A DNA stretch of 64,000 nt from Spirochaetae bacterium HGW-Spirochaetae-2 (GTDB taxonomy: Bacteria > Spirochaetota > Spirochaetia > Sphaerochaetales > Sphaerochaetaceae), in NCBI GenBank assembly GCA_002839355.1, contig PGXW01000019.1, positions 1 through 64,000 of the forward strand. Direction: 5' to 3'. A program made the position numbers and the translations under genes. Position 1 is the first letter of the stretch; every line of letters begins with the position of its first letter. Under the pieces are notes generated by a model. That model saw only the letters and a program-made list of their open reading frames with translations. It did not search any database and was not told the DNA's origin. Below are positions 27,669-41,264 of this stretch, piece by piece.

Positions 27669-28871
27669 ATGCCAGAGGATAAAAAAAAGCCCGCAATTCG
27701 GTTTGTCAGATTTGATGATGCTTGGGAACAGCGTAAGATTGATAAATTATTAACTGAAGTTATACGGCCTGTTAAAATGATGGATGATAAAGAATATGAA
27801 CTTGTTACTGTTAAGCGAAGAAATGAGGGGGTCACATCTCGTGGGAAGCTAAAAGGTATAGACATTCTTGTTAAAACTTACTTTGAAGTCAAAGCGGGAG
27901 ACTACCTAATATCTAAGCGACAAGTTGTGCATGGCGCTAATGGAATTGTCCCAAAAAACCTTGACGGGGCAGTAGTCTCAAACGAATACCTAGTTCTTAC
28001 TGACAACGATGGAATGTCTGTTGAATTTCTTGCAATATTATCAAAGCACCCAGAGATGTATAAAAAGTTCTTTTTAAGTTCGTACGGAATTGATATTGAG
28101 AAACTTGTTTTTGATGTTGATGATTGGAAAAAGAGAACAATAAATATTCCGACAATAGCTGAGCAAAAGAAAATCTGTTTGTTTTTTAAAACTATAGAAA
28201 CCTTAATCACCCTTCATCAGCATAAGTATGACAAACTGGTTTCTGTTAAGAGATCCATGCTCGATAAAATGTTTCCGAAAAATGGTTCGAACATTCCAGA
28301 GATTAGGTTTGCTGGATTTACTGACCCTTGGGAACAGCGTAAGTTGAGCGATGTCGCAGAATTCAATCCAAAAGGAACGCTCCCAGACGAATTTGAATAT
28401 GTTGATCTAGAGTCAGTTGTAGGAACAGAACTCATCAGCCATAGACGTGAAACTATTCATACGGCACCCTCAAGGGCGCAAAGAGTCGCAAAGTATGGCG
28501 ATATCTTCTATCAAACAGTTCGACCTTATCAAAAGAATAATTATTTATTTAACAGTAAAGAAAATGACTATGTTTTCTCTACTGGGTATGCACAGCTGAG
28601 ACCCCAAATCAAAGGTTCTTTATTATTCTGCATACTGCAAGAAGATGGTTTTGTGAAGGATGTTCTTGATAGATGTACTGGCACTAGTTATCCTGCTATT
28701 ACTTCCACGAGTCTCGAAGATATCGCAATTAAGATACCAGTCAATCCGGTCGAACAAGAGAAAATCGGGAGCTTTTTCAAACACATGGACAACCTTATCA
28801 CCCTTCATCAGCGTAAGCTTGAAAAGCTCAAGAATGTAAAAAAAGCAATGCTCGATAAAATGTTTTTGTAA
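27669..28871 (+). CDS. hsdS: Type I restriction-modification specificity subunit
   Basis: A 400-residue HsdS built of two halves. Each half opens with a similar phrase (FDDAWEQRKIDKLL and FTDPWEQRKLSDVAEF), carries a different target-recognition domain, and closes with a conserved helix (LITLHQHKYDKLVSVKRSML and LITLHQRKLEKLKNVKKAML). The two recognition domains read the two halves of a split DNA site and the repeats set the spacing. It starts one base after hsdM and ends 14 bases before hsdR. Both domains look intact. Confidence 0.92.
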   Translation: MPEDKKKPAIRFVRFDDAWEQRKIDKLLTEVIRPVKMMDDKEYELVTVKRRNEGVTSRGKLKGIDILVKTYFEVKAGDYLISKRQVVHGANGIVPKNLDGAVVSNEYLVLTDNDGMSVEFLAILSKHPEMYKKFFLSSYGIDIEKLVFDVDDWKKRTINIPTIAEQKKICLFFKTIETLITLHQHKYDKLVSVKRSMLDKMFPKNGSNIPEIRFAGFTDPWEQRKLSDVAEFNPKGTLPDEFEYVDLESVVGTELISHRRETIHTAPSRAQRVAKYGDIFYQTVRPYQKNNYLFNSKENDYVFSTGYAQLRPQIKGSLLFCILQEDGFVKDVLDRCTGTSYPAITSTSLEDIAIKIPVNPVEQEKIGSFFKHMDNLITLHQRKLEKLKNVKKAMLDKMFL

Positions 28872-28885
28872 AGGCGGTTATAGAT

Positions 28886-31800
28886 ATGCCTCAAGCTACT
28901 ACAGTATTCACCAAGGAATCCGAGTTTGAAGAGGCTCTCATTGAAATCCTTTCTAGGAAAGGATGGGAGCAACAAGTAATCAAGCATCCAACTGAGAAAG
29001 ATCTGGTTGAGAACTGGCGACGTATTCTTAATAACAACAATATGATTCGTGATAGGCTTAATGGCTACCCGCTGACCGATAGTGAGATGCAGCAGATACT
29101 GGAACAAATCGTGGCTTTGAGAACACCTCTTAAGCTGAATGGTTTCATCAACGGCAAGACCGTCTCCATCAAGCGCGACAACCCGGATGATATTGAGCAC
29201 CTTGGAAAGGAAATTAGCCTCAAGATATATGACAGGAACGAGATTGCAGCTGGGCAAAGCAGGTATCAAATAGCACTACAACCAGACCTTCCCTCACGTG
29301 AAGCAATCGCTAATGATCGCAGGGGTGATTTGATGCTCTTGATAAATGGGATGCCTGTGATCCATATCGAATTGAAGAAAAGCGGTATCTCAGTCAGTCA
29401 AGCGTACAACCAGATTGAGAAATATGCATATGAGGGAGTTTTCTCAGGTCTCTTTTCGCTCATACAGGTCTTTGTAGCGATGGAGCCGAATGAAACGGTT
29501 TACTTCGCAAATCCGGGCCCTGAGGGGAAATTTGTCAAAGACTATTACTTTCACTGGGCGGATTTCAATAATGAGCCGATCAATGGATGGCAAGATATTG
29601 CATCATCGTTCCTCTCAATACCGATGGCACATCAGCTGATTGGCTTCTATACTGTTGCCGATGGCTCCGACGGCATTCTCAAGGTAATGCGTAGCTACCA
29701 GTATTATGCAGCTAGTGCGATCTCGGATCGCGTCTCGAAAGCCCTCTGGGATGGAAGAGAGATGCGGGGCGGATATATCTGGCATACAACAGGATCCGGA
29801 AAGACCATGACAAGCTTCAAGTCTGCTCAGCTGATAGCCAACTCCAAGGATGCCGATAAGGTAGTGTTCCTCATGGACAGAATTGAACTTGGAACCCAAT
29901 CACTTAAGGAATATCGAGCATTCGCAAATGAAACTGAGGATGTCCAAGCAACAGAGGATACCTATGTGCTCATATCGAGATTGAAAAGTACTGATCCCGC
30001 TGACACGCTCATAGTCACATCGATACAGAAGATGAGTAGGATCAATGATGATGGAATCGGTGCTCGGGACTTGTGCAAGATCAACTCCAAGAGGATGGTG
30101 ATCATCGTGGACGAAGCGCATCGTTCCACTTTTGGGGAGATGCTCCTGACTATAAAGGAAACCTTTCCCAGGGCAATGTTCTTCGGGTTTACAGGCACTC
30201 CGATTCTCGAAGATAACCAAAAAAAGAAAAGCACTACGTCTACAGTATTTGGGGATGAACTTCACAGATATAGTATTGCAGACGGGATACGCGACAGGAA
30301 TGTCCTTGGGTTTGATCCATACAAGGTCCTTACGTTCAGGGATAAGGACCTGAGGAAATCCGTTGCATTGGATAAAGCAAAAGCAGCAACGGAAGCTGAT
30401 GCGGTGATGAATCCAAAGAAAAGCAGGATCTATTACCATTACATGAACGATGTTCCCATGGTGGGCTATTCAACTGCGGACGGAAGACGTATCAAGGGGA
30501 TCGAGGACTACATTCCCCATTCGCAATACCTTTTCAGCGAACATCAGAAAGCAGTAGTCACAGATATTCTTGAAAATTGGCTAACCTTAAGTCATGGGTA
30601 TAAGTTTCATGCGATCTTTGCGACCAGTAGTATAAACGAGGCAATCACCTACTACAAGCTGTTGAAGCCGGCGGAATCATATGTGAAAGTGACCTGTCTT
30701 TTCGATCCTGGGATAGATAATAACGGGGGGGCTGAATTCAAGGAGGAGGGTCTTATTGAAATCATAAAGGACTACAATGCTCGATACGGCCAAGACTTTA
30801 CCCTTTCCAATTATGGTAAGTTCAAAAAGGATATCGCAAACAGGCTAGCCCACAAGGATCCTTATCGGTTGATAGAACGAACCCCTGAGAAGCAGATTGA
30901 CATCTTGATTGTTGTGGATCAGATGCTTACGGGGTTTGATTCCAAATGGTTGAACACCTTGTACCTTGACAAGGAGTTGAGGTACGAGAATATCATCCAA
31001 GCATTTTCTCGGACTAACCGGATATTCGGTCAAGACAAGCCTTTTGGGACAATTAGGTACTACAGGAAACCCCACACGATGGAAAAGAATATCGAGAAGG
31101 CAGTGAAACTGTATTCTGGTGATAGGCCTTTCGATCTTTTCGTCGAGAAGCTGGATAAAAACTTGGATAAGCTGAATTCTATTTATACAGAGATTTTCGA
31201 TCTTTTCATCAATGCCGGGATTCCAGATCGTGAAAAGCTCCCTGACAGGAATTCTGAGAAGGCGAAGTTTGCATCTCTTTTCAAGAAATTGAATGATTAC
31301 CTTGAAGCTGCAAGGGTACAGGGGTTTGCGTGGGAAAAATCCATGTATACCTTCGGCGAGAGTGATGATAAGAGAACTATCAAGGTGGCGTTCGATGAGA
31401 ATGAATATCTCATACTCGCACAACGATACAAAGAACTTTTCAATGGTGATGGTGGAGGGGGGGCAAACCCTGATGACATTCCCTATCTGATAGACGGAAA
31501 CCTTACAGAGATTGATACCGGAAGAATTGATAGGGAATATATGGATTCACGTTTCGAGAAGTATCTGAAAGCACTCAACCTGGGCGATGAGAAAGAAAAA
31601 CAGAAAACTTTGGAGGACCTTCACAAATCATTTGCCGCACTTACACAGGAAGAACAAAAGTATGCCGCCCTGTTTCTCCATGACATTCAAAGGGGAAGTG
31701 TGGCCATTGAGGCTGGAAAATCATTCAGGGATTATGTAGTCGAATATCAGGCGAGAATCAAGAACGATCAAATACACAAGTTAGCTCTGGTGTTTGGATT

Positions 31801-32020
31801 GGATGAAGAAAAGTTAAGAAGACTCATGAAATTCCGCACAACAGCAATAAATATTAATGAGTACGGGCGATTCGAAGATTTGATAAGTACCGTAGATAGG
31901 AAGAAAGCAAGGGAATATTTCGAGAGTGTGGAAAAAGCGAAGATTAAGGAATACAAAGTCAATGCGAAAATTGACAAGCTCATGAGGGAGTTTATCATTA
32001 AAGGTGGGTTTGAGGTTTAG
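28886..32020 (+). CDS. hsdR: Type I restriction endonuclease/translocase subunit
   Basis: A 1044-residue HsdR, full length. The N-terminal nuclease domain has Asp148 (RRGDLMLLINGMPV) and Glu162-Leu-Lys164 (HIELKKSG) of the PD-(D/E)XK fold. The motor has Walker A TTGSGKT (Lys306) and DEAH at 409-412, with GFTGTPI as motif III and FSRTNRIFG as motif VI. It pulls DNA toward the bound complex and cuts at a distance. With hsdM and hsdS it makes a complete and apparently working type I system. Confidence 0.94.
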   Translation: MPQATTVFTKESEFEEALIEILSRKGWEQQVIKHPTEKDLVENWRRILNNNNMIRDRLNGYPLTDSEMQQILEQIVALRTPLKLNGFINGKTVSIKRDNPDDIEHLGKEISLKIYDRNEIAAGQSRYQIALQPDLPSREAIANDRRGDLMLLINGMPVIHIELKKSGISVSQAYNQIEKYAYEGVFSGLFSLIQVFVAMEPNETVYFANPGPEGKFVKDYYFHWADFNNEPINGWQDIASSFLSIPMAHQLIGFYTVADGSDGILKVMRSYQYYAASAISDRVSKALWDGREMRGGYIWHTTGSGKTMTSFKSAQLIANSKDADKVVFLMDRIELGTQSLKEYRAFANETEDVQATEDTYVLISRLKSTDPADTLIVTSIQKMSRINDDGIGARDLCKINSKRMVIIVDEAHRSTFGEMLLTIKETFPRAMFFGFTGTPILEDNQKKKSTTSTVFGDELHRYSIADGIRDRNVLGFDPYKVLTFRDKDLRKSVALDKAKAATEADAVMNPKKSRIYYHYMNDVPMVGYSTADGRRIKGIEDYIPHSQYLFSEHQKAVVTDILENWLTLSHGYKFHAIFATSSINEAITYYKLLKPAESYVKVTCLFDPGIDNNGGAEFKEEGLIEIIKDYNARYGQDFTLSNYGKFKKDIANRLAHKDPYRLIERTPEKQIDILIVVDQMLTGFDSKWLNTLYLDKELRYENIIQAFSRTNRIFGQDKPFGTIRYYRKPHTMEKNIEKAVKLYSGDRPFDLFVEKLDKNLDKLNSIYTEIFDLFINAGIPDREKLPDRNSEKAKFASLFKKLNDYLEAARVQGFAWEKSMYTFGESDDKRTIKVAFDENEYLILAQRYKELFNGDGGGGANPDDIPYLIDGNLTEIDTGRIDREYMDSRFEKYLKALNLGDEKEKQKTLEDLHKSFAALTQEEQKYAALFLHDIQRGSVAIEAGKSFRDYVVEYQARIKNDQIHKLALVFGLDEEKLRRLMKFRTTAININEYGRFEDLISTVDRKKAREYFESVEKAKIKEYKVNAKIDKLMREFIIKGGFEV

Positions 32021-32091: not shown

Positions 32092-34059
32092 ATGAAAAGC
32101 AATATGGTTAAGGTATACGTGGCTTTCCGCTCTGGGTGCTTAGGAAATAATATTCTTGAAGCATACTATCCGTTTTTAGCAAATATTATTTGGAAAGAGA
32201 ATATCACTGTTATTGATGAATTACAAATTCGAGCAGAGTTTGAGCGAAAATATAAAATCCCAGTACCGATTTCATTTATTCGAGAAGTGTTAGGTGTTGG
32301 GATTCGAAATGAGTCAATTATTGATAATCGTGGGAGATACGTAGTTCAGAAAGAAAAGATTTCACAGTATAAGTTTGATTCTATTCCCTTCGAGAATAAA
32401 TGGGCTCAAATGAATGAATCATTTAAACATTTCTGTAAGAAGAATGATTATTCAGTCTCTGAATATAATATTGATGAGAGGATTCTTGATAGTATCAATC
32501 AACAAGATGAGGATATCATATTAAACGAGGATCTCGAGGTGCCTCAAGAATCTGATTCATTTGATTTCGCTTGGCATGAGTTTTTAACGACTGCCGCAAA
32601 GGATTCCCCTGAAATTTTTGATTTCATTGTGGCAATAAGTGCAAGCAATATTATGAAACAAGCTGTATTTTTCACAGGGGATGGACGTGAGACCTTTCGT
32701 GGACTTAATGTCTACTTGGATTCTCCTTACGTATTTGCGCTATTAGGAATGGATTCTCTAGAAAGAAAGGAGTCTTGTAAATATTTATTTGATAGAATGT
32801 TAGAAGCAGGTTGCAATGTCCAGATATTTGACCATAATCTTAACGAAATCAATGGAATTTTATCACGGGCAGGATCCTGGGCAACAAGTCCACATTATAG
32901 TTTGGATAAAGCAAACAATGCGGCAAGGTATTTCCATGATTTGCAGATGGATGAACAATTAATTGCGGAGTATTGCGAATCTGTTGAAGACAAGTTAAGC
33001 AAACTTGGGATGACGATAAAAAAAACCGACTATGATACATACGAAGACAAGTTTCAAGAAAATGAGAAGCAAATTTTTAAGATGATTGAAGAGAAATATC
33101 AAAAATACGGTAAATTGATTAATGAAGATATTAGAAACAGCATCTTGGTAGATGTTAGATCAATAATAATGGTATATCGAGAAAGGCGGGGTCAGACCTC
33201 AACTCGAATCCAATCATCTAGAGATATCTTGATAACCCTAAATAATGTAGTTGCAGACGTTAGCAAGAAGTATGAGAGCAATCAAAGCAATGACGCTGGA
33301 CATATTCCTGCAGGTATTTCATCTGATGTTTTTGGAGCTGTACTGTGGTTGTTCAGTCCTGCTGATCTGATGCAATACCAAAAGAAGCAACTTTTAGCGG
33401 ATTGTTACATAGCGCTTCGTCCTAACAGAACAATGTTGAAAAAGTATGTTGAATCACTTGAAAGAGCTCGTAGTGCAGGAGAAATTGATGATAAGAAGTA
33501 TCTTTTCCTGCGTTCTCACTCAGTTGTCAATGATGCTTTAATGAATGTGACCAAAGGAAATTATGCACGTTTTAATGATCGTACATATCTTGAGGTTTAT
33601 GACGAAATACAGGCAATATCAGAAAAAAAATATTATGATGAACTAGTTTCTCACAAACTGACCCAAGAAGAATTATATAAACTCCAACAGGAAAAGGATG
33701 AGCAAAATAGAAAGGCTGAAACAGAAAGATTAGAAAAGGAGAAGAAAATCGACGAATTGGCGAACGAAGTAGGCAATTTAAAATCAAGCATGGAACAAAA
33801 AGAAAAAATTGAATTTGAAAAAAAAGTAAATCAATTAGGCTGGCTTTGGACAGGGAGTTTAATTGGTCTCCCTTATTTGATTCTAATGGCAATACTACAG
33901 ATATCAATTAGCGTTTATACTGATTTTAGTCTATTCTCGATATTAAACGTCTTCGCCTTAGTTCTGTTAACATTAATCTTTGGATATCTTGAGAAAAAAG
34001 GGAAAGCTTGTTGTTTTAAGTGGGCAGAGAAGCATTTAAGAAAAAAATTGAATAAATAA
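32092..34059 (+). CDS. PIN-like domain protein with coiled coil and two membrane segments
   Basis: A 655-residue protein I cannot assign to a family. Residues 205-380 look PIN-like: Asp210 in VYLDSPYVFALLGM, Glu252 in DHNLNEINGIL and Asp378 in SSRDILITLNN could form the acidic metal site of an RNase. Residues about 540-580 form a charged coiled coil (KAETERLEKEKKIDELANEV). Residues about 583-635 contain two membrane helices (GSLIGLPYLILMAILQ; ILNVFALVLLTLIFGYL). It lies 71 bases after hsdR, is equally A/T-rich, and may be a defence accessory or abortive-infection effector tethered to the membrane. Confidence 0.55.
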   Translation: MKSNMVKVYVAFRSGCLGNNILEAYYPFLANIIWKENITVIDELQIRAEFERKYKIPVPISFIREVLGVGIRNESIIDNRGRYVVQKEKISQYKFDSIPFENKWAQMNESFKHFCKKNDYSVSEYNIDERILDSINQQDEDIILNEDLEVPQESDSFDFAWHEFLTTAAKDSPEIFDFIVAISASNIMKQAVFFTGDGRETFRGLNVYLDSPYVFALLGMDSLERKESCKYLFDRMLEAGCNVQIFDHNLNEINGILSRAGSWATSPHYSLDKANNAARYFHDLQMDEQLIAEYCESVEDKLSKLGMTIKKTDYDTYEDKFQENEKQIFKMIEEKYQKYGKLINEDIRNSILVDVRSIIMVYRERRGQTSTRIQSSRDILITLNNVVADVSKKYESNQSNDAGHIPAGISSDVFGAVLWLFSPADLMQYQKKQLLADCYIALRPNRTMLKKYVESLERARSAGEIDDKKYLFLRSHSVVNDALMNVTKGNYARFNDRTYLEVYDEIQAISEKKYYDELVSHKLTQEELYKLQQEKDEQNRKAETERLEKEKKIDELANEVGNLKSSMEQKEKIEFEKKVNQLGWLWTGSLIGLPYLILMAILQISISVYTDFSLFSILNVFALVLLTLIFGYLEKKGKACCFKWAEKHLRKKLNK

Positions 34060-34276: not shown

Positions 34277-34777
34277 CTACGCAAAGACCTCTCGCGGATG
34301 TACGAGCGTATGGTTCACCAGTCCGATCGACACCACGTCTACTCCCATGATCTCGTGGGCTCCATTAAGCGAGACACACAGGAAATACTCCTGTGGCCGG
34401 TTTCCATAATGCCGGATGAGCGGGTATACGTCGGATGGGAAAATCACCTGTTTGCGCTTTGCGGGTAACCGTCGTCGACCCAATTCCAATGCGGCGCACA
34501 CAAGGGTAGCCTTGGCCATTCCCATCCCATCGATCTTGATCAGGTCCTCGATCAATATTTCGCTATCGCCACGTGTCCGATCCAAGAGGGCCAGGATATC
34601 CTTGGCAAGGATCGGAACAGGTTTCCTGCTCGTCCCCGATCCAAGAAGGATCGAAAGCAATTCATTGTCAGACAATGCTGTGGAGCCATTGATTTGCAGC
34701 TTTTCGCGGGGACGCTGCTCTATAGGCAACTCTTTGATTCCGTTTTCAAACACCGGTGGTTCATTGTATTTTCTCAT
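34277..34777 (-). pseudogene. radC: radC (RadC/JAB domain) truncated at the island junction
   Basis: A 166-residue remnant of the RadC family, normally about 220 residues. The N-terminal HhH-containing part is intact (IKELPIEQRPREKL, ALSDNELLSILLGSGT, IDGMGMAKATLV), and the JAB domain begins (YFLCVSLNGAHEIMGVDVVS, VHPREVFA), but the frame stops there. The missing part would hold the catalytic JAMM motif (HNHPSG and downstream Asp). The break coincides with the shift from chromosomal to A/T-rich island sequence. The missing end may lie on the far side of the island. The start at 34777 is the first ATG in the expected place. Confidence 0.75.
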
Positions 34778-34969
34778 ATAGGATATACGCACGGGATTTT
34801 GGTATTGCTTCGTAAATTTTTGAAAAAACTCAGTGGGATGGAGGGGTGTATCTGATGATTGTTTTTTTCACAGGTGATATACTCGGAATAGATGTGAGCG
34901 CTTGGGCGAAAAACGTGGAAAGCGAAGCTGGAAACGAGAATCGTTTGACAAGAGCGTAAGGAGCTAACC

Positions 34970-36211
34970 GTGGAGCAAGTCTCTGCGCAACGGATTTCGT
35001 CACTTGATGACGAACCTCCGCTTAAACAACCGGGTGTTGGAGTTACCTTTCCTTCGCCTAGTCCCAAACGGCCTGGAAATCCCAGGTCCTCCCTGTTCAG
35101 AAAACACTATTTTCCGAACACGAATTCGACCCAATGGAACGATTGGCATTGGCAACTTTTCCATAGGATCACGACGCTCGAGCAACTCTACCGATACGTA
35201 ACTCCCACAGAGGAGGAACGCCAGGCTTTGGAACGAAAGGATTGGCAGTTTCCGTTCTCTGTAACCCCTTATTATTTGAGTCTCATCGATCTCTCGGATC
35301 CTGACGACCCGCTCAGGAAGACAGTCATTCCCCAAATCGCCGAAAGCCATATCTCGGCCGGAGAAGCTGCCGATCCGCTAGGCGAGGACCACACCAGTCC
35401 GGTTCCGGGCATCGTGCACCGCTATCCTGACAGGGCTTTGTTCCTTGCCACCAGCTTCTGTTCGGTCTATTGTCGGTATTGTACCCGTTCACGCCTTGTG
35501 GGAGGGCACACCGAGACGTTGGAAGTGCAGTGGGACAGGGCTTTCGAATACCTTGCGCAACACACGGAAATCCGGGATGTCGTAATCTCAGGTGGCGATC
35601 CGCTGACATTGTCGGATGAGCGTTTAGGCCTGCTGTTGGGCAGACTGAAGCAGATCAAACATATCGAGATGGTTCGTATCGGGACCAAGGTGCCGTTCGT
35701 CATGCCACAGCGTATTACCCCGGCACTCGTCAAGGTTCTCAAGACCTTCCGACCCCTGTTCATCAATATCCATGCCACGCATCCGAATGAATTGACCGAG
35801 GAATCGCGGCAGGCCTGCAACCGGTTGGCGGATGTCGGTATTGTCCTGGGTAGCCAGACCGTACTGCTCAAGGGAGTCAACGATTCGATAGCGACGATGA
35901 CCGAACTGTTCCACAAGTTGCTCACCGTACGTGTGAAACCCTACTACCTGTTCCAATGTGATCCGATAGTCGGGTCTGAGCATTTCAGGACTTCGATCGC
36001 CAAGGGAAAGGAGATCATGGACGGATTGCGGGGGCATACCAGCGGGTTTGCCGTTCCGTACTATGTGGTCGATACTCCCGGAGGTGGTGGAAAAGTCCCC
36101 ATATTGCCCGATTATGAAGTCTCGCATGACGAAAAGGGACTTTGCCTGCGCAACTACGAGGGAAAGGAATTCATGTATCCCGATGTGGTTGCAACCCAAG
36201 GACCACTCTGA
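34970..36211 (+). CDS. KamA-type radical SAM lysine 2,3-aminomutase
   Basis: A 413-residue radical SAM/PLP aminomutase. The iron-sulfur motif is CSVYCRYC (Cys164, 168, 171). The PLP lysine is in GGGGK (Lys375). Asp331 (FQCD) and Asp368 (VVDTPGG) match in spacing the two aspartates (293 and 330) that hold the side-chain amino group in clostridial lysine 2,3-aminomutase, so L-lysine to beta-lysine is the likely reaction rather than glutamate. GTG start after TAAGGAGC. First gene of an operon with two ATP-grasp ligases and a GNAT acetyltransferase, which suggests beta-lysine is built into a further product. Confidence 0.85.
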   Translation: MEQVSAQRISSLDDEPPLKQPGVGVTFPSPSPKRPGNPRSSLFRKHYFPNTNSTQWNDWHWQLFHRITTLEQLYRYVTPTEEERQALERKDWQFPFSVTPYYLSLIDLSDPDDPLRKTVIPQIAESHISAGEAADPLGEDHTSPVPGIVHRYPDRALFLATSFCSVYCRYCTRSRLVGGHTETLEVQWDRAFEYLAQHTEIRDVVISGGDPLTLSDERLGLLLGRLKQIKHIEMVRIGTKVPFVMPQRITPALVKVLKTFRPLFINIHATHPNELTEESRQACNRLADVGIVLGSQTVLLKGVNDSIATMTELFHKLLTVRVKPYYLFQCDPIVGSEHFRTSIAKGKEIMDGLRGHTSGFAVPYYVVDTPGGGGKVPILPDYEVSHDEKGLCLRNYEGKEFMYPDVVATQGPL

Positions 36212-36212
36212 G

Positions 36213-37199
36213 ATGCGTATAGGTCTGACCTTCGATCTCAAGGAAAGGTACTTGGCGGATGGGTATAGGATCGAGGAAGTGGCGGAGTTGGACAGTATCG
36301 AGACAATCGATGCCATCGATGCATCCCTGCGTTCCTTGGGATACATGACTGAACGGATCGGCAATGTGAAGGATCTGGTTTTCGCTTTAGCACACGGCAA
36401 GCGTTGGGACCTTGTCTTCAACATAGCCGAGGGATTGCATGGACTTTGCCGTGAGGCACAGATTCCCGCACTGCTCGACGCATACCGGATACCCTACGTC
36501 TTCTCCGACTCGCTCACTCTAGCGGTGACCTTGCACAAGGGATTGGCCAAGGCCGTGGTGCATGAACATGGCGTGCCGACCGCGGCATACCGGGTTGTGC
36601 GCAATCCCGGGGATTTGGACAATGTGGACCTACCGTATCCCTTGTTCATAAAACCGGTCGGCGGTGGTACCGGAATGGGTATCGACGGAAACTCGATCGT
36701 GCGGAATCCCAAACAACTGGAAAAGGGTGTGGGGCATTTGCTTGCCGCGCATGGCCAGCCGGTGTTGGTGGAGACCTATCTCAGCGGACGGGAGTTCACC
36801 GTTGGCATTACCGGAACTGCCGGACAGGCCTCGGTTGTCGGGATCATGGAAATCTTTGTGGACGCGGCAAGTGACCAGGGAGTCTACTCCTATGCCTCCA
36901 AGCAACATTACAAGGAATGCGCGGACTATCGGACAGTGGATGGCCCGGTAGCAGCCCAGTGTGCCGAAGTCGCACTCGGTGCCTGGAAGGCTTTGGATTG
37001 TAGGGATGGCGGCAGGGTCGATTTGCGTATGGATGACTGTCAGGTCGTGAACTTTCTTGAAGTCAATCCGCTTGCGGGCCTGCATCCAGTAGATTCCGAT
37101 CTTCCAATCCTCGCAGGCATGGCGGGAATCGGGTATACCCAGTTGATTGGACGGATCATGGACTCGGCTTGTCTTCGGCTGGAGAAGGCGCATGGCTAG
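36213..37199 (+). CDS. ATP-grasp ligase, D-Ala-D-Ala ligase-like (first of two)
   Basis: A 328-residue ATP-grasp protein. The N-terminal domain has the ligase pattern LVFNIAEGLHG. The ATP-binding lid is PLFIKPVGGGTGMGIDGNSI, and the metal-binding end is VNFLEVNPLAGLHPVDSDLP. It begins 1 base after the KamA stop with no clear ribosome site, so it is translationally coupled. D-Ala-D-Ala ligase-like enzymes form amide bonds through an acyl-phosphate. In this operon it probably joins an amino acid to beta-lysine or a derivative; the substrate is not known. Confidence 0.8.
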   Translation: MRIGLTFDLKERYLADGYRIEEVAELDSIETIDAIDASLRSLGYMTERIGNVKDLVFALAHGKRWDLVFNIAEGLHGLCREAQIPALLDAYRIPYVFSDSLTLAVTLHKGLAKAVVHEHGVPTAAYRVVRNPGDLDNVDLPYPLFIKPVGGGTGMGIDGNSIVRNPKQLEKGVGHLLAAHGQPVLVETYLSGREFTVGITGTAGQASVVGIMEIFVDAASDQGVYSYASKQHYKECADYRTVDGPVAAQCAEVALGAWKALDCRDGGRVDLRMDDCQVVNFLEVNPLAGLHPVDSDLPILAGMAGIGYTQLIGRIMDSACLRLEKAHG

Positions 37200-38172
37200 G
37201 AACGTATTGCTTTTGCATGACACGGTCTCTGCCCACGCACCGCCCGACGAGCTGGACACATTGGACCAGTTGGTTGCGGTGGAGTCTGCGTTGCGCGCGC
37301 TGGGGTACGGTACCACAAGAAAGCCGTTCGACGGGGACTTGCTTGCACTTGAGCGCTATTTGCAGACCAATCGGTTCGATGTGGTGTTCAACCTCGTTGA
37401 AACCTACCACGGTTCACGGTTCCTCCACCTCATACCGCTCCTCTGTGAACAGCTGGGAATGCCGGTTACCGGGGGGAATTCGGAATCGTTATTCCTCACC
37501 AGCGACAAGTTGCTGGCAAAACGGCTGCTGGTCCTGGCAGGTATTCCCACTCCCCAGTGGGTTACTCGGGACAACCGCGACCAATGGGGTTTGTTCCTGG
37601 GCCATCGGCTGCTTTGCAAGCCGCGGGGTGAGGAAGCTTCTGTCGGTATCGACGATGCCTCGGTCCTTGTCTGCGACACCTTGTATGACTTGGAGAGCCT
37701 GGTCGAACGTGCCGACACCGAGAGCCTCATGATAGAACGCTTCATTGATGGACGCGAATACAACATTTCCATTCTCCCAAGCGATGGGAAGCCGCAAGTA
37801 TTGCCGATTGCCGAAATGGTGTTTTCCGACTATCCTCCCGACAAACCGAAAATTGTCGGTTATGAGGCAAAATGGCTCGAAGATTCGTTTGCCTACACCC
37901 ATACAATACGCACTTTTAGGATCGAAGCAAGCGATACGGTCTTGGCCGAGAGGTTGCATGCGGTTGCCGAGGATACATGGCGCCTGTTCGGCGGCAACGG
38001 GTACGCCCGGGTCGACCTGCGGCTCGACGAGCGGGGCAACGCGTTTGTCCTGGAGTTGAACGCGAACCCGTGCATTGCCCATGACAGCGGTTTCTTCGCG
38101 GCTGCTCATGAGGCTGGATATACCTACAACCAGATGATCGAAGCTATCGTACAGGAGGCTCTCCGTGGGTGA
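37192..38172 (+). CDS. ATP-grasp ligase, D-Ala-D-Ala ligase-like (second of two)
   Basis: A 326-residue ATP-grasp protein with the same fold as its neighbour: DVVFNLVETYHGSRFLHLIP at the N-terminus, LCKPRGEEASVGIDDASVL in the ATP lid, and FVLELNANPCIAHDSGFFAA at the metal site. Similarity to the preceding enzyme is limited to the motifs, so the two probably add different substrates in sequence. It overlaps the upstream gene by 8 bases and the GNAT gene by 8. Confidence 0.8.
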   Translation: MARNVLLLHDTVSAHAPPDELDTLDQLVAVESALRALGYGTTRKPFDGDLLALERYLQTNRFDVVFNLVETYHGSRFLHLIPLLCEQLGMPVTGGNSESLFLTSDKLLAKRLLVLAGIPTPQWVTRDNRDQWGLFLGHRLLCKPRGEEASVGIDDASVLVCDTLYDLESLVERADTESLMIERFIDGREYNISILPSDGKPQVLPIAEMVFSDYPPDKPKIVGYEAKWLEDSFAYTHTIRTFRIEASDTVLAERLHAVAEDTWRLFGGNGYARVDLRLDERGNAFVLELNANPCIAHDSGFFAAAHEAGYTYNQMIEAIVQEALRG

Positions 38173-38650
38173 ATTGTGGTTTCGGGACGAGCCCGACTAT
38201 GCCGATGTAGCCAAGGTCGGATCGTTGCTCAAGAGGACCGCCTTCTTTTCTCCAGATGAAGAGGAGATCGGGGTTTCATTGGTTGAGGAACGGTTGGAGA
38301 AGGGCCCTGCCTGCGGATACCTGTTCGTTTTTGCCGAGCTGGATGGCAATCTGGTCGGATACTCGTGTTATGGGCCGATTCCGGGAACCTTGGACGGCCA
38401 CGACCTGTATTGGATAGCTGTCGATCCCGACAGGCAGGGTAAAAGATACGGCAGCGCGATCCTGGATGAGACCGAGAATCGTGTGCTTGCCGCGGGAGGC
38501 AGGCGGTTGTATGCCGAAACCTCTTCCACGGACCTGTATGCCCCGACACGGGCCTTCTATGAACGGAATGGATTTTTCTTGGAAGGTCGTCTGGCCGACT
38601 ATTATGCACCGGGAGACGACAAGATGCTGTATATGAAGCGTCTTGTCTAA
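38165..38650 (+). CDS. GNAT family N-acetyltransferase
   Basis: A 161-residue GNAT protein. The acetyl-CoA loop is DPDRQGKRYGSAILDETENR (Q/RxxGxG/A type), preceded by the strand LYWIAVDP and followed by TRAFYERNGFFLEGRL. GTG start with AGGAGG upstream, overlapping the second ligase gene. In archaea and some bacteria an acetyltransferase partners lysine 2,3-aminomutase to make N-acetyl-beta-lysine, an osmolyte; here it may acetylate beta-lysine or the ligated product. Confidence 0.85.
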   Translation: MGELWFRDEPDYADVAKVGSLLKRTAFFSPDEEEIGVSLVEERLEKGPACGYLFVFAELDGNLVGYSCYGPIPGTLDGHDLYWIAVDPDRQGKRYGSAILDETENRVLAAGGRRLYAETSSTDLYAPTRAFYERNGFFLEGRLADYYAPGDDKMLYMKRLV

Positions 38651-38674: not shown

Positions 38675-40036
38675 CTAGATCACTGTCTTGGATTTCCAAG
38701 AGCCCTTGACGAACCGTGTGACGAAGCAGGTGGCGCGGAACAGCCAGTCGAAATACATGGCAAACCAAATGCCATGCAATCCGAGGCCAAGATATTTTCC
38801 CAACACATAGCTCAGGCCGACCCTGAACACCCACATGCTTGCGATTGAGACGGTCATGGTGTATTTCACATCGCCTGAGGCTCTCAACACCTGGGGAAGG
38901 GTGAACGAAACCGGCCAGATCACCGCATTCACGACAAACAGGATCTTCAGGATCTCTATTGCCATGGTCGATGATGCCGGACTCAAGTTGAATAGGCCCA
39001 CCATGGACTCCGTGGCGATGAACAGGACAGCTGCAAGGCCTGCCAACGTCACATACGTTATCTTCAACAGCTTTCGGGCGTAGTAGGCCGCCTGTTCCGT
39101 CTCGCCCGCACCCATACATTGTCCAACCACCGTAATGGTTGCCAATCCGATTGCTCCTCCAGGAATGTTTGTCATGGATGCGAGGGTGTTCGCGATCGCG
39201 TTGGCTGCCAACGCGGTTGTTCCGAATGTAGCGGTGAGACTTTGCACCAGGATCTTGCCGATATGGAAGATGCCGCTTTCCAATCCGTTGGGGATGCCTA
39301 TGCGGAGAATACGGCGGATCATGGACCAATCGAGCTTGATATGCAGCAACCGATCGATCCGTATCCGATCACCCTTCTTGACCAATAAGGTCAGCATGAT
39401 GGCTGCCGATAGGATTCTTGCTGCCAAGGTCGCGATTCCTGCTCCCAACACCCCCAAACCGGCTATGTAGATGAGGATCGCGTTTCCCAGGATATTGCTG
39501 ATCGTCATGACCACCGATACCTGCATGGAGATACGGCTGTTGCCCATCGCCCTGAAGAGGGCTGCGCCAGAATTGTACAAACCGAGAAACGGGTAGGAGA
39601 GTGCTGTCAATGCGAAATAGGTCTGTGCTTGACGCATCACATCGACATCCAGGTTCCCGTACAGGGTTCCCAGGATAAAGTTGTTGAACAGCAGGAAGGT
39701 TGCCATGAACAACAGTGCCACGAACGTGGTCGTGTAGATGAGTTGCTTTGCGGCATCCCCCGCTTTTTGGGAGTTCCGTTGGCCTATGTACTGTGCGACG
39801 ACAACGGCACCTCCTGCGGCAAGGGCCGAGAATAGGAACAGGAAGAGGTTGTTGATGGAGTCGACAAGCGCGATGCTTGAGACGGCGGCTTCTCCGACGG
39901 AGGAGATCATGATGGTGTCGGCAAATCCCACCGAAACATCCAACATCCTTTCTATCACCAAAGGGAGGATAAGGGAACCGAGTTGTCTGTTTGAAAAAAG
40001 CCTAGGTTGCAACGGAGAAGGTTCTGCAGAGAACAA
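38675..40036 (-). CDS. MATE-family multidrug/metabolite efflux transporter
   Basis: About 453 residues with some 12 membrane helices in two related halves, as in MATE exporters (PLVIERMLDVSVGFADTIMI in the first half, IGIPNGLESGIFHIGKILVQ in the second). It exports cationic or amphipathic compounds using a sodium or proton gradient. The frame is open up to a GTG at 40105 that lacks a ribosome site. The TTG at 40036 is preferred because AAGGA lies 9 bases upstream and the protein then starts in the usual place before helix 1. It is convergent to the KamA operon. Confidence 0.85.
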   Translation of the reverse strand: MFSAEPSPLQPRLFSNRQLGSLILPLVIERMLDVSVGFADTIMISSVGEAAVSSIALVDSINNLFLFLFSALAAGGAVVVAQYIGQRNSQKAGDAAKQLIYTTTFVALLFMATFLLFNNFILGTLYGNLDVDVMRQAQTYFALTALSYPFLGLYNSGAALFRAMGNSRISMQVSVVMTISNILGNAILIYIAGLGVLGAGIATLAARILSAAIMLTLLVKKGDRIRIDRLLHIKLDWSMIRRILRIGIPNGLESGIFHIGKILVQSLTATFGTTALAANAIANTLASMTNIPGGAIGLATITVVGQCMGAGETEQAAYYARKLLKITYVTLAGLAAVLFIATESMVGLFNLSPASSTMAIEILKILFVVNAVIWPVSFTLPQVLRASGDVKYTMTVSIASMWVFRVGLSYVLGKYLGLGLHGIWFAMYFDWLFRATCFVTRFVKGSWKSKTVI

Positions 40037-40151
40037 TGGATTTTTTCCTTGACCCGGGTCATCGCATAGCACGATGGCGTGATATCCCAGTGTGCTCCTT
40101 TTCACCGACTAAGACAAGATGGGTCGAAGGAGATATCGTGGATATCGGATG

Positions 40152-41142: not shown

Positions 41143-41190
41143 GTTGGGAAGATAGCCACACACGTGCGGAAGGTCTAATGAAAAGTATAG

Positions 41191-41264
<74 letters not shown>

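Follow-up and report, generated by a model that had tools for sequence, protein, structure and literature searches.

The gene block considered here lies in the first 64,000 nucleotides of contig PGXW01000019.1 (assembly GCA_002839355.1) from Spirochaetae bacterium HGW-Spirochaetae-2. This stretch, referred to as the window, belongs to contig C68. The assembly totals 3.6 Mb, and its closest named relatives are spirochaete metagenome genomes. Four genes occupy positions 34970-38650 of the + strand in the series kamA, lig1, lig2, and gnat. The first (34970..36211) begins with GTG after an AAGGAG motif and encodes a kamA-like radical SAM/PLP lysine 2,3-aminomutase of 413 amino acids. It is followed by two genes with ATG starts for ATP-grasp ligases of the Ddl fold, both assigned to PF07478: Lig1 (36213..37199; 328 amino acids), which defines the orthologue family followed here, and Lig2 (37192..38172; 326 amino acids). 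The last gene (38165..38650; GTG start) encodes a 161-amino-acid GNAT N-acetyltransferase (PF00583) of the family of PDB 2r7h. kamA and lig1 are separated by 1 nt, while lig1/lig2 and lig2/gnat overlap by 8 nt each, a spacing that suggests translational coupling of the four genes. The overlapping or abutting run of four genes described in the original prediction is thus borne out by the order and spacing of the reading frames.

Conservation and distribution of the gene block

Loci for comparison were picked by Lig1 alone, so that the genes found next to it serve as independent evidence. Among 104 distinct loci, KamA lies alongside Lig1 in 87, Lig2 in 82, and all four genes occur together in 58; these counts are lower bounds, as many loci end at contig ends or have short flanks. 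The order is nearly always KamA-Lig1-Lig2-(fusion)-GNAT, where the fusion is an accessory GNAT-deacetylase gene, and the tight spacing is kept across phyla. In an all-against-all clustering of 80 Lig1-fetched loci and the window, Lig1 is found in 67 loci, KamA in 65, Lig2 in 62, and GNAT in 48, and the next real family appears in only 13. Because these four families top the clustering by such a distance, the block is not a chance association. The gene trees of KamA, Lig1, Lig2, and GNAT are also correlated (pairwise r 0.54-0.82, compared with permutation maxima of 0.11 to 0.19 over 500 permutations), and the block has therefore been inherited together. Conservation of the four genes had been put forward as a check on the original prediction, and the result agrees with it. 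Judged from these genomic comparisons, the block forms a single conserved functional unit in which a lysine 2,3-aminomutase-like enzyme is joined by two distinct ligases and a GNAT.

Gene fusions occur within the block, with Lig1 and Lig2 joined in a single ORF in two loci (L028, L033) and Lig2 joined to GNAT in another (L073), and one genome carries two full copies (L167, L168). The genes surrounding the block in the named loci belong to unrelated families, such as TatD, ThiF, M14, M19, CstA, and PHO4.

An alignment scan with Lig1 across a species-level genome collection recovered at least 565 loci with a relative. Carriers are many mostly anaerobic bacteria of several phyla; among the matches listed, they include Spirochaetales, Bacteroidales, Syntrophaceae and other Deltaproteobacteria, Acidobacteria, Ignavibacteria, Neomarinimicrobiota, WOR-3, Clostridiaceae, Prolixibacter denitrificans, and Desulfocarbo indianensis. 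Within the phylum of the window, a Lig1 orthologue is found in 36 of 393 sampled genomes (~9%) at E <1e-85, well separated from the next homologues, which lie near 1e-29. In the phylum of the sulfate reducer Desulfonema limicola, an orthologue scoring at least 397 bits is present in 62 of 297 genomes (~21%), and 75 are found at E 1e-80. A weaker group, at about 320 bits, contains tandem ligases that are fused to each other and lack KamA (L160, L161). These are single ORFs of 679 and 702 amino acids, each with two tandem Lig1-like ATP-grasp ligases, and no KamA was detected in the stretch.

The aminomutase, the paired ligases, and the acetyltransferase

The KamA of the window belongs to the KamA family TIGR00238 (343.2 bits; cut-off 199.2) and carries an N-terminal extension of ~48 amino acids. 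Assignment as glutamate 2,3-aminomutase (416.6 vs 650 bits), arginine 2,3-aminomutase (380.7 vs 600), or EpmB (271 vs 369.3) is ruled out by the equivalog cut-offs. Alignment to the lysine 2,3-aminomutase 2A5H places D331 and D368, the two lysine-binding Asp residues named in the original prediction, at D293 and D330, and K375 at Lys337. From the published enzyme, we take D293 and D330 to be the lysine side-chain ligands and Lys337 to be the PLP lysine. All 101 block-type KamAs examined retain D293, D330, R134, K337, and the three cluster cysteines of CxxxCxxC (2A5H numbering), and hence the residue set of a lysine 2,3-aminomutase. They also share Pro294, giving the signature QCDP, whereas canonical enzymes mostly have Leu at this position (QCDL). 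The QCDP KamAs form one clade (support 0.74), sister to the canonical lysine 2,3-aminomutases including 2A5H (0.954). Given the invariant lysine-ligand residues and the position of this clade, lysine is the best guess for the substrate, and a well-supported one, with L-beta-lysine as the predicted product. In line with this, the KamA adjoining Lig1 in one other locus (L090) exceeds the cut-off of the lysine equivalog TIGR03820, with 549.8 bits against 525.4. Use of another substrate, which would have undermined the original prediction, is disfavored by the invariant Asp pair and by the low scores against the glutamate and arginine models.

Since canonical lysine 2,3-aminomutases are generally known to serve lysine fermentation in some anaerobes, KamA and the ligases might be mere neighbors, the former acting in fermentation and the latter making an unrelated dipeptide; the solitary Lig1 of certain Rhizobiales, discussed below, is in keeping with this. 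Such an arrangement is nevertheless very unlikely, as KamA adjoins Lig1 in 87 of the 104 loci, the gene trees are correlated, and the block KamAs form a clade of their own apart from canonical lysine aminomutases.

Lig1 and Lig2 are modeled by AlphaFold2 with pLDDT values of 92.7 and 91.8, and their top Foldseek matches are all Ddl-type (E about 1e-24). Both lie far under every Ddl and Van family cut-off, scoring 135 (Lig1) and 106.5 (Lig2) against 243 for the Ddl model NF002378. Residues of 21 Lig1 and 18 Lig2 proteins were mapped on E. coli DdlB, with known active-site positions falling on the expected letters of the reference sequence used. One row, labeled as the Ddl of the genome itself, held a wrong ORF and was set aside. 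K97, K144, E180, E187, K215, R255, D257, E270, and N272 (DdlB numbering) are kept in both ligases. The two therefore share with Ddl and VanA-type ligases the fold, the ATP and Mg residues, and the acceptor-carboxylate Arg255, as expected of ATP-grasp amide ligases of this fold. Unlike in those enzymes, the D-Ala1 pocket residues E15, H63, S150, and Y216 are lost, being replaced by A/D, E, T/A, and gap/W, respectively. The position of H63 holds an invariant Glu in both. In Lig1, Leu282 of DdlB is replaced by an invariant Asp, and the invariant Glu73 and Asp296 stand at D-Ala subsite positions; in Lig2, Gly276 is replaced by an invariant Cys, and Glu69, Trp227, and Cys293 are invariant (numbering of the 325-amino-acid form). 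As read from the alignment, such acid-lined pockets would suit a substrate with positive charge, for instance lysine or beta-lysine.

The presence of two distinct D-Ala-D-Ala ligase-like enzymes, as originally described, is thus upheld, with both being non-Ddl members of PF07478. The genome also has a separate canonical ddl on contig C85 beside a murE-like gene. Given this gene and the lost D-Ala pocket, identity of Lig1 or Lig2 with the peptidoglycan Ddl is ruled out, and a part for the block ligases in ordinary peptidoglycan synthesis, which the original prediction had named, alongside a different KamA substrate, as an outcome that would speak against it, appears unlikely.

The GNAT matches PDB 2r7h (E 1.9e-41), which was deposited as a putative D-alanine N-acetyltransferase and is also matched from a Deltaproteobacteria locus. 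No match to AblB (TIGR03827) is found in the whole genome, and the reading of the GNAT as AblB, with plain N-acetyl-beta-lysine as the product, is accordingly rejected. In 22 of the 104 loci, though not in the block of the window, an extra gene of ~600 amino acids encodes an N-terminal GNAT followed by a deacetylase domain that is closest to acetylpolyamine amidohydrolases (E 2e-74 to 9gkz). The accessory gene differs from these enzymes in its fusion to a GNAT and its place within the block. Acetylpolyamine amidohydrolases remove acetyl groups from small alkylamines. The presence of such a domain in the fusion suggests that a small alkylamine is acetylated, which would fit a lysine-type side chain.

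A candidate pathway and its product

It is proposed that KamA, on account of its invariant active site, converts L-lysine to L-beta-lysine. Lig1 and Lig2 would have descended from a D-Ala-D-Ala ligase with their substrate pockets rebuilt and lined with acidic residues. Given the Ddl fold and the intact ATP and Mg residues, the two would form amide bonds: ATP would activate a carboxylate to its acyl phosphate, and two such bonds would yield a beta-lysyl di- or tripeptide. The GNAT would acetylate an amine on either the product or an intermediate. In some of the bacteria, the fusion of GNAT with an acetylpolyamine-amidohydrolase-like domain may allow a primary amine to be acetylated reversibly, the simplest candidate being the side-chain amine of the (beta-)lysine unit. 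On the evidence of the predicted proteins, we consider it moderately probable that the four genes form an autonomous operon for the biosynthesis of N-acetylated beta-lysyl di- or tripeptides. Gene content and conservation are consistent with the acetylated beta-lysine peptide of the original prediction.

The block shares features with several known systems. The AblA/AblB pathway for the osmolyte N-epsilon-acetyl-beta-lysine, found in methanogens, green sulfur bacteria, and Bacillus cereus (PMC1224877, PMC9337991), likewise combines a lysine 2,3-aminomutase-type enzyme with a GNAT acetyltransferase. The block differs in adding two ATP-grasp ligases, in having a GNAT other than AblB, and in the membership of its KamA in a sister subfamily, with a score under the AblA cut-off. 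EpmB and EpmA, which act in the beta-lysylation of EF-P, share with the block a KamA-family enzyme making beta-lysine (a prediction in the case of the block), but the block KamA is not EpmB and neither an EpmA nor an EF-P gene recurs with it. In the pyrrolysine pathway, the radical SAM mutase PylB acts on lysine and is followed by the ATP-grasp ligase PylC. The block would follow a similar logic, although PylB is not KamA-type and the block contains two ligases and a GNAT and has no PylD. The PylC model matched only a Lig2 paralogue, and weakly (20.5 bits).

Several observations weigh against the proposed pathway. The best equivalog match of the window's KamA is lys_2_3_AblA (TIGR03820), yet its 455.8 bits do not reach the cut-off of 525.4. 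Some loci have KamA and Lig1 without Lig2 nearby (L062, L082, L106), while others have KamA, Lig2, and GNAT with Lig1 elsewhere or absent (L144, L145, L158). Because both kinds exist, KamA is common to two half-modules and the product may differ between lineages. In addition, Lig1 occurs in three Rhizobiales loci (L064, L092, L107) whose genomes contain neither Lig2 nor a block-type KamA, so that Lig1 may not always use beta-lysine; in these bacteria it must either obtain its substrate from another source or act on a different one. Searches for Na+, c-di-AMP, and lysine riboswitches in the window region and 33 related loci found none, neither a salt-linked riboswitch nor an osmolyte gene turned up near the block, and no assays of any block product or enzyme were found in the open-access literature. 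The lone Lig1 proteins of the Rhizobiales are 54-56% identical to that of the window.

Beta-lysine is generally known as a part of antibiotics, and the product could be a secreted, antibiotic-like peptide as in streptothricin-type compounds, exported by the MATE family transporter encoded next to the block (38675..40105, - strand; TIGR00797 above cut-off). This gene adjoins the block in the window and its close relatives, but it is convergent with the block, and its opposite orientation probably puts it outside the operon. It is kept beside the block in only five close relatives including the window. The MATE transporter as a conserved exporter of the block is thus rejected, and the export role raised in the original prediction is not supported. 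Moreover, the 80 named loci show no recurrent family of transporters, self-resistance proteins, or regulators, and the broad distribution and co-inheritance of the block are unlike those of a typical antibiotic cluster, making a secreted peptide quite unlikely.

Alternatively, the ligases may attach beta-lysine to a macromolecule, be it a component of the cell wall or envelope or a protein (elongation factor P, for example), without yielding a free small peptide. As general background, Ddl-like ligases work in cell-wall synthesis and EpmB/EpmA beta-lysylate EF-P; the genome's Lig2 paralogue, on another contig, also lies near FemAB and MMPL genes. However, genes for murein, a carrier, or EF-P are not recurrent neighbors of the block, the canonical ddl stands separately next to the murE-like gene, KamA falls far under the EpmB cut-off, and the deacetylase fusion resembles enzymes for small polyamines. 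A macromolecular target is accordingly unlikely.

As the block has no recurrent transporter, peptidase, or regulator gene at its side, the predicted acetylated peptide probably remains in the cytoplasm; a product of this kind is likelier than an antibiotic. As a first guess, and a tentative one, it may act as a compatible solute or similar bulk metabolite, by analogy with N-epsilon-acetyl-beta-lysine (PMC1224877, PMC9337991). The fuller proposal is that undescribed N-acetylated beta-lysyl peptides, made without the ribosome or NRPS by a QCDP KamA and a repurposed D-Ala-D-Ala ligase pair and reversibly acetylated in some bacteria, are a common cytoplasmic metabolite of anaerobes in several phyla; we give this even chances.

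Family searches found no NCBIfam model specific to the block ligases or the GNAT, and no description of the gene combination was found in the open-access literature, to which the search was confined, so novelty is provisional. The parts of the block belong to known families, and their combination is, provisionally and as far as found, undescribed. If the proposal is true, a widespread anaerobe metabolite has gone unnamed in the family libraries and literature searched, a sizeable gap in bacterial metabolism, and Ddl, a drug target, has been retooled for basic and beta-amino acid substrates. The pathway is directly testable, as it comprises four short proteins, the structure of the GNAT family is solved (2r7h), and the predicted product should take up label from lysine.

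Related genes and surroundings of the block

The Lig2 paralogue of the genome (256 bits) is found on contig C83, at L150:5017-6084, between an iron alcohol dehydrogenase gene and the FemAB and MMPL genes. Three relatives (L039, L043, L046) carry a Lig2 paralogue immediately downstream of the block, on the other strand, and in L043 it adjoins a CstA-type transporter gene. Another pair, a KamA-like protein directly followed by a Ddl-like ligase, occurs in five loci (L140, L163, L164, L165, L166) and shows conservation in a single further family of the phylum to which the window belongs. Its ligase scores only 133-162 bits against the Lig1 model, and the KamA-like protein of L140 has Glu at position 293.

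No PADLOC match marks the block as a defense system, and no plasmid match indicating a plasmid origin was found at E 1e-40. Upstream of it, a RadC protein (34277-34792, - strand) matches positions 1-146 of a 212-position profile, with about the last third missing; radC has perhaps been interrupted by an insertion. It adjoins apparent type I restriction genes (27669-32020), judged by eye from their translations, and a 655-amino-acid ORF without a Pfam match lies nearby at 32092-34059. The sole tRNA gene of the window, tRNA-Arg (ccg), is located at 41190-41264 on the - strand.

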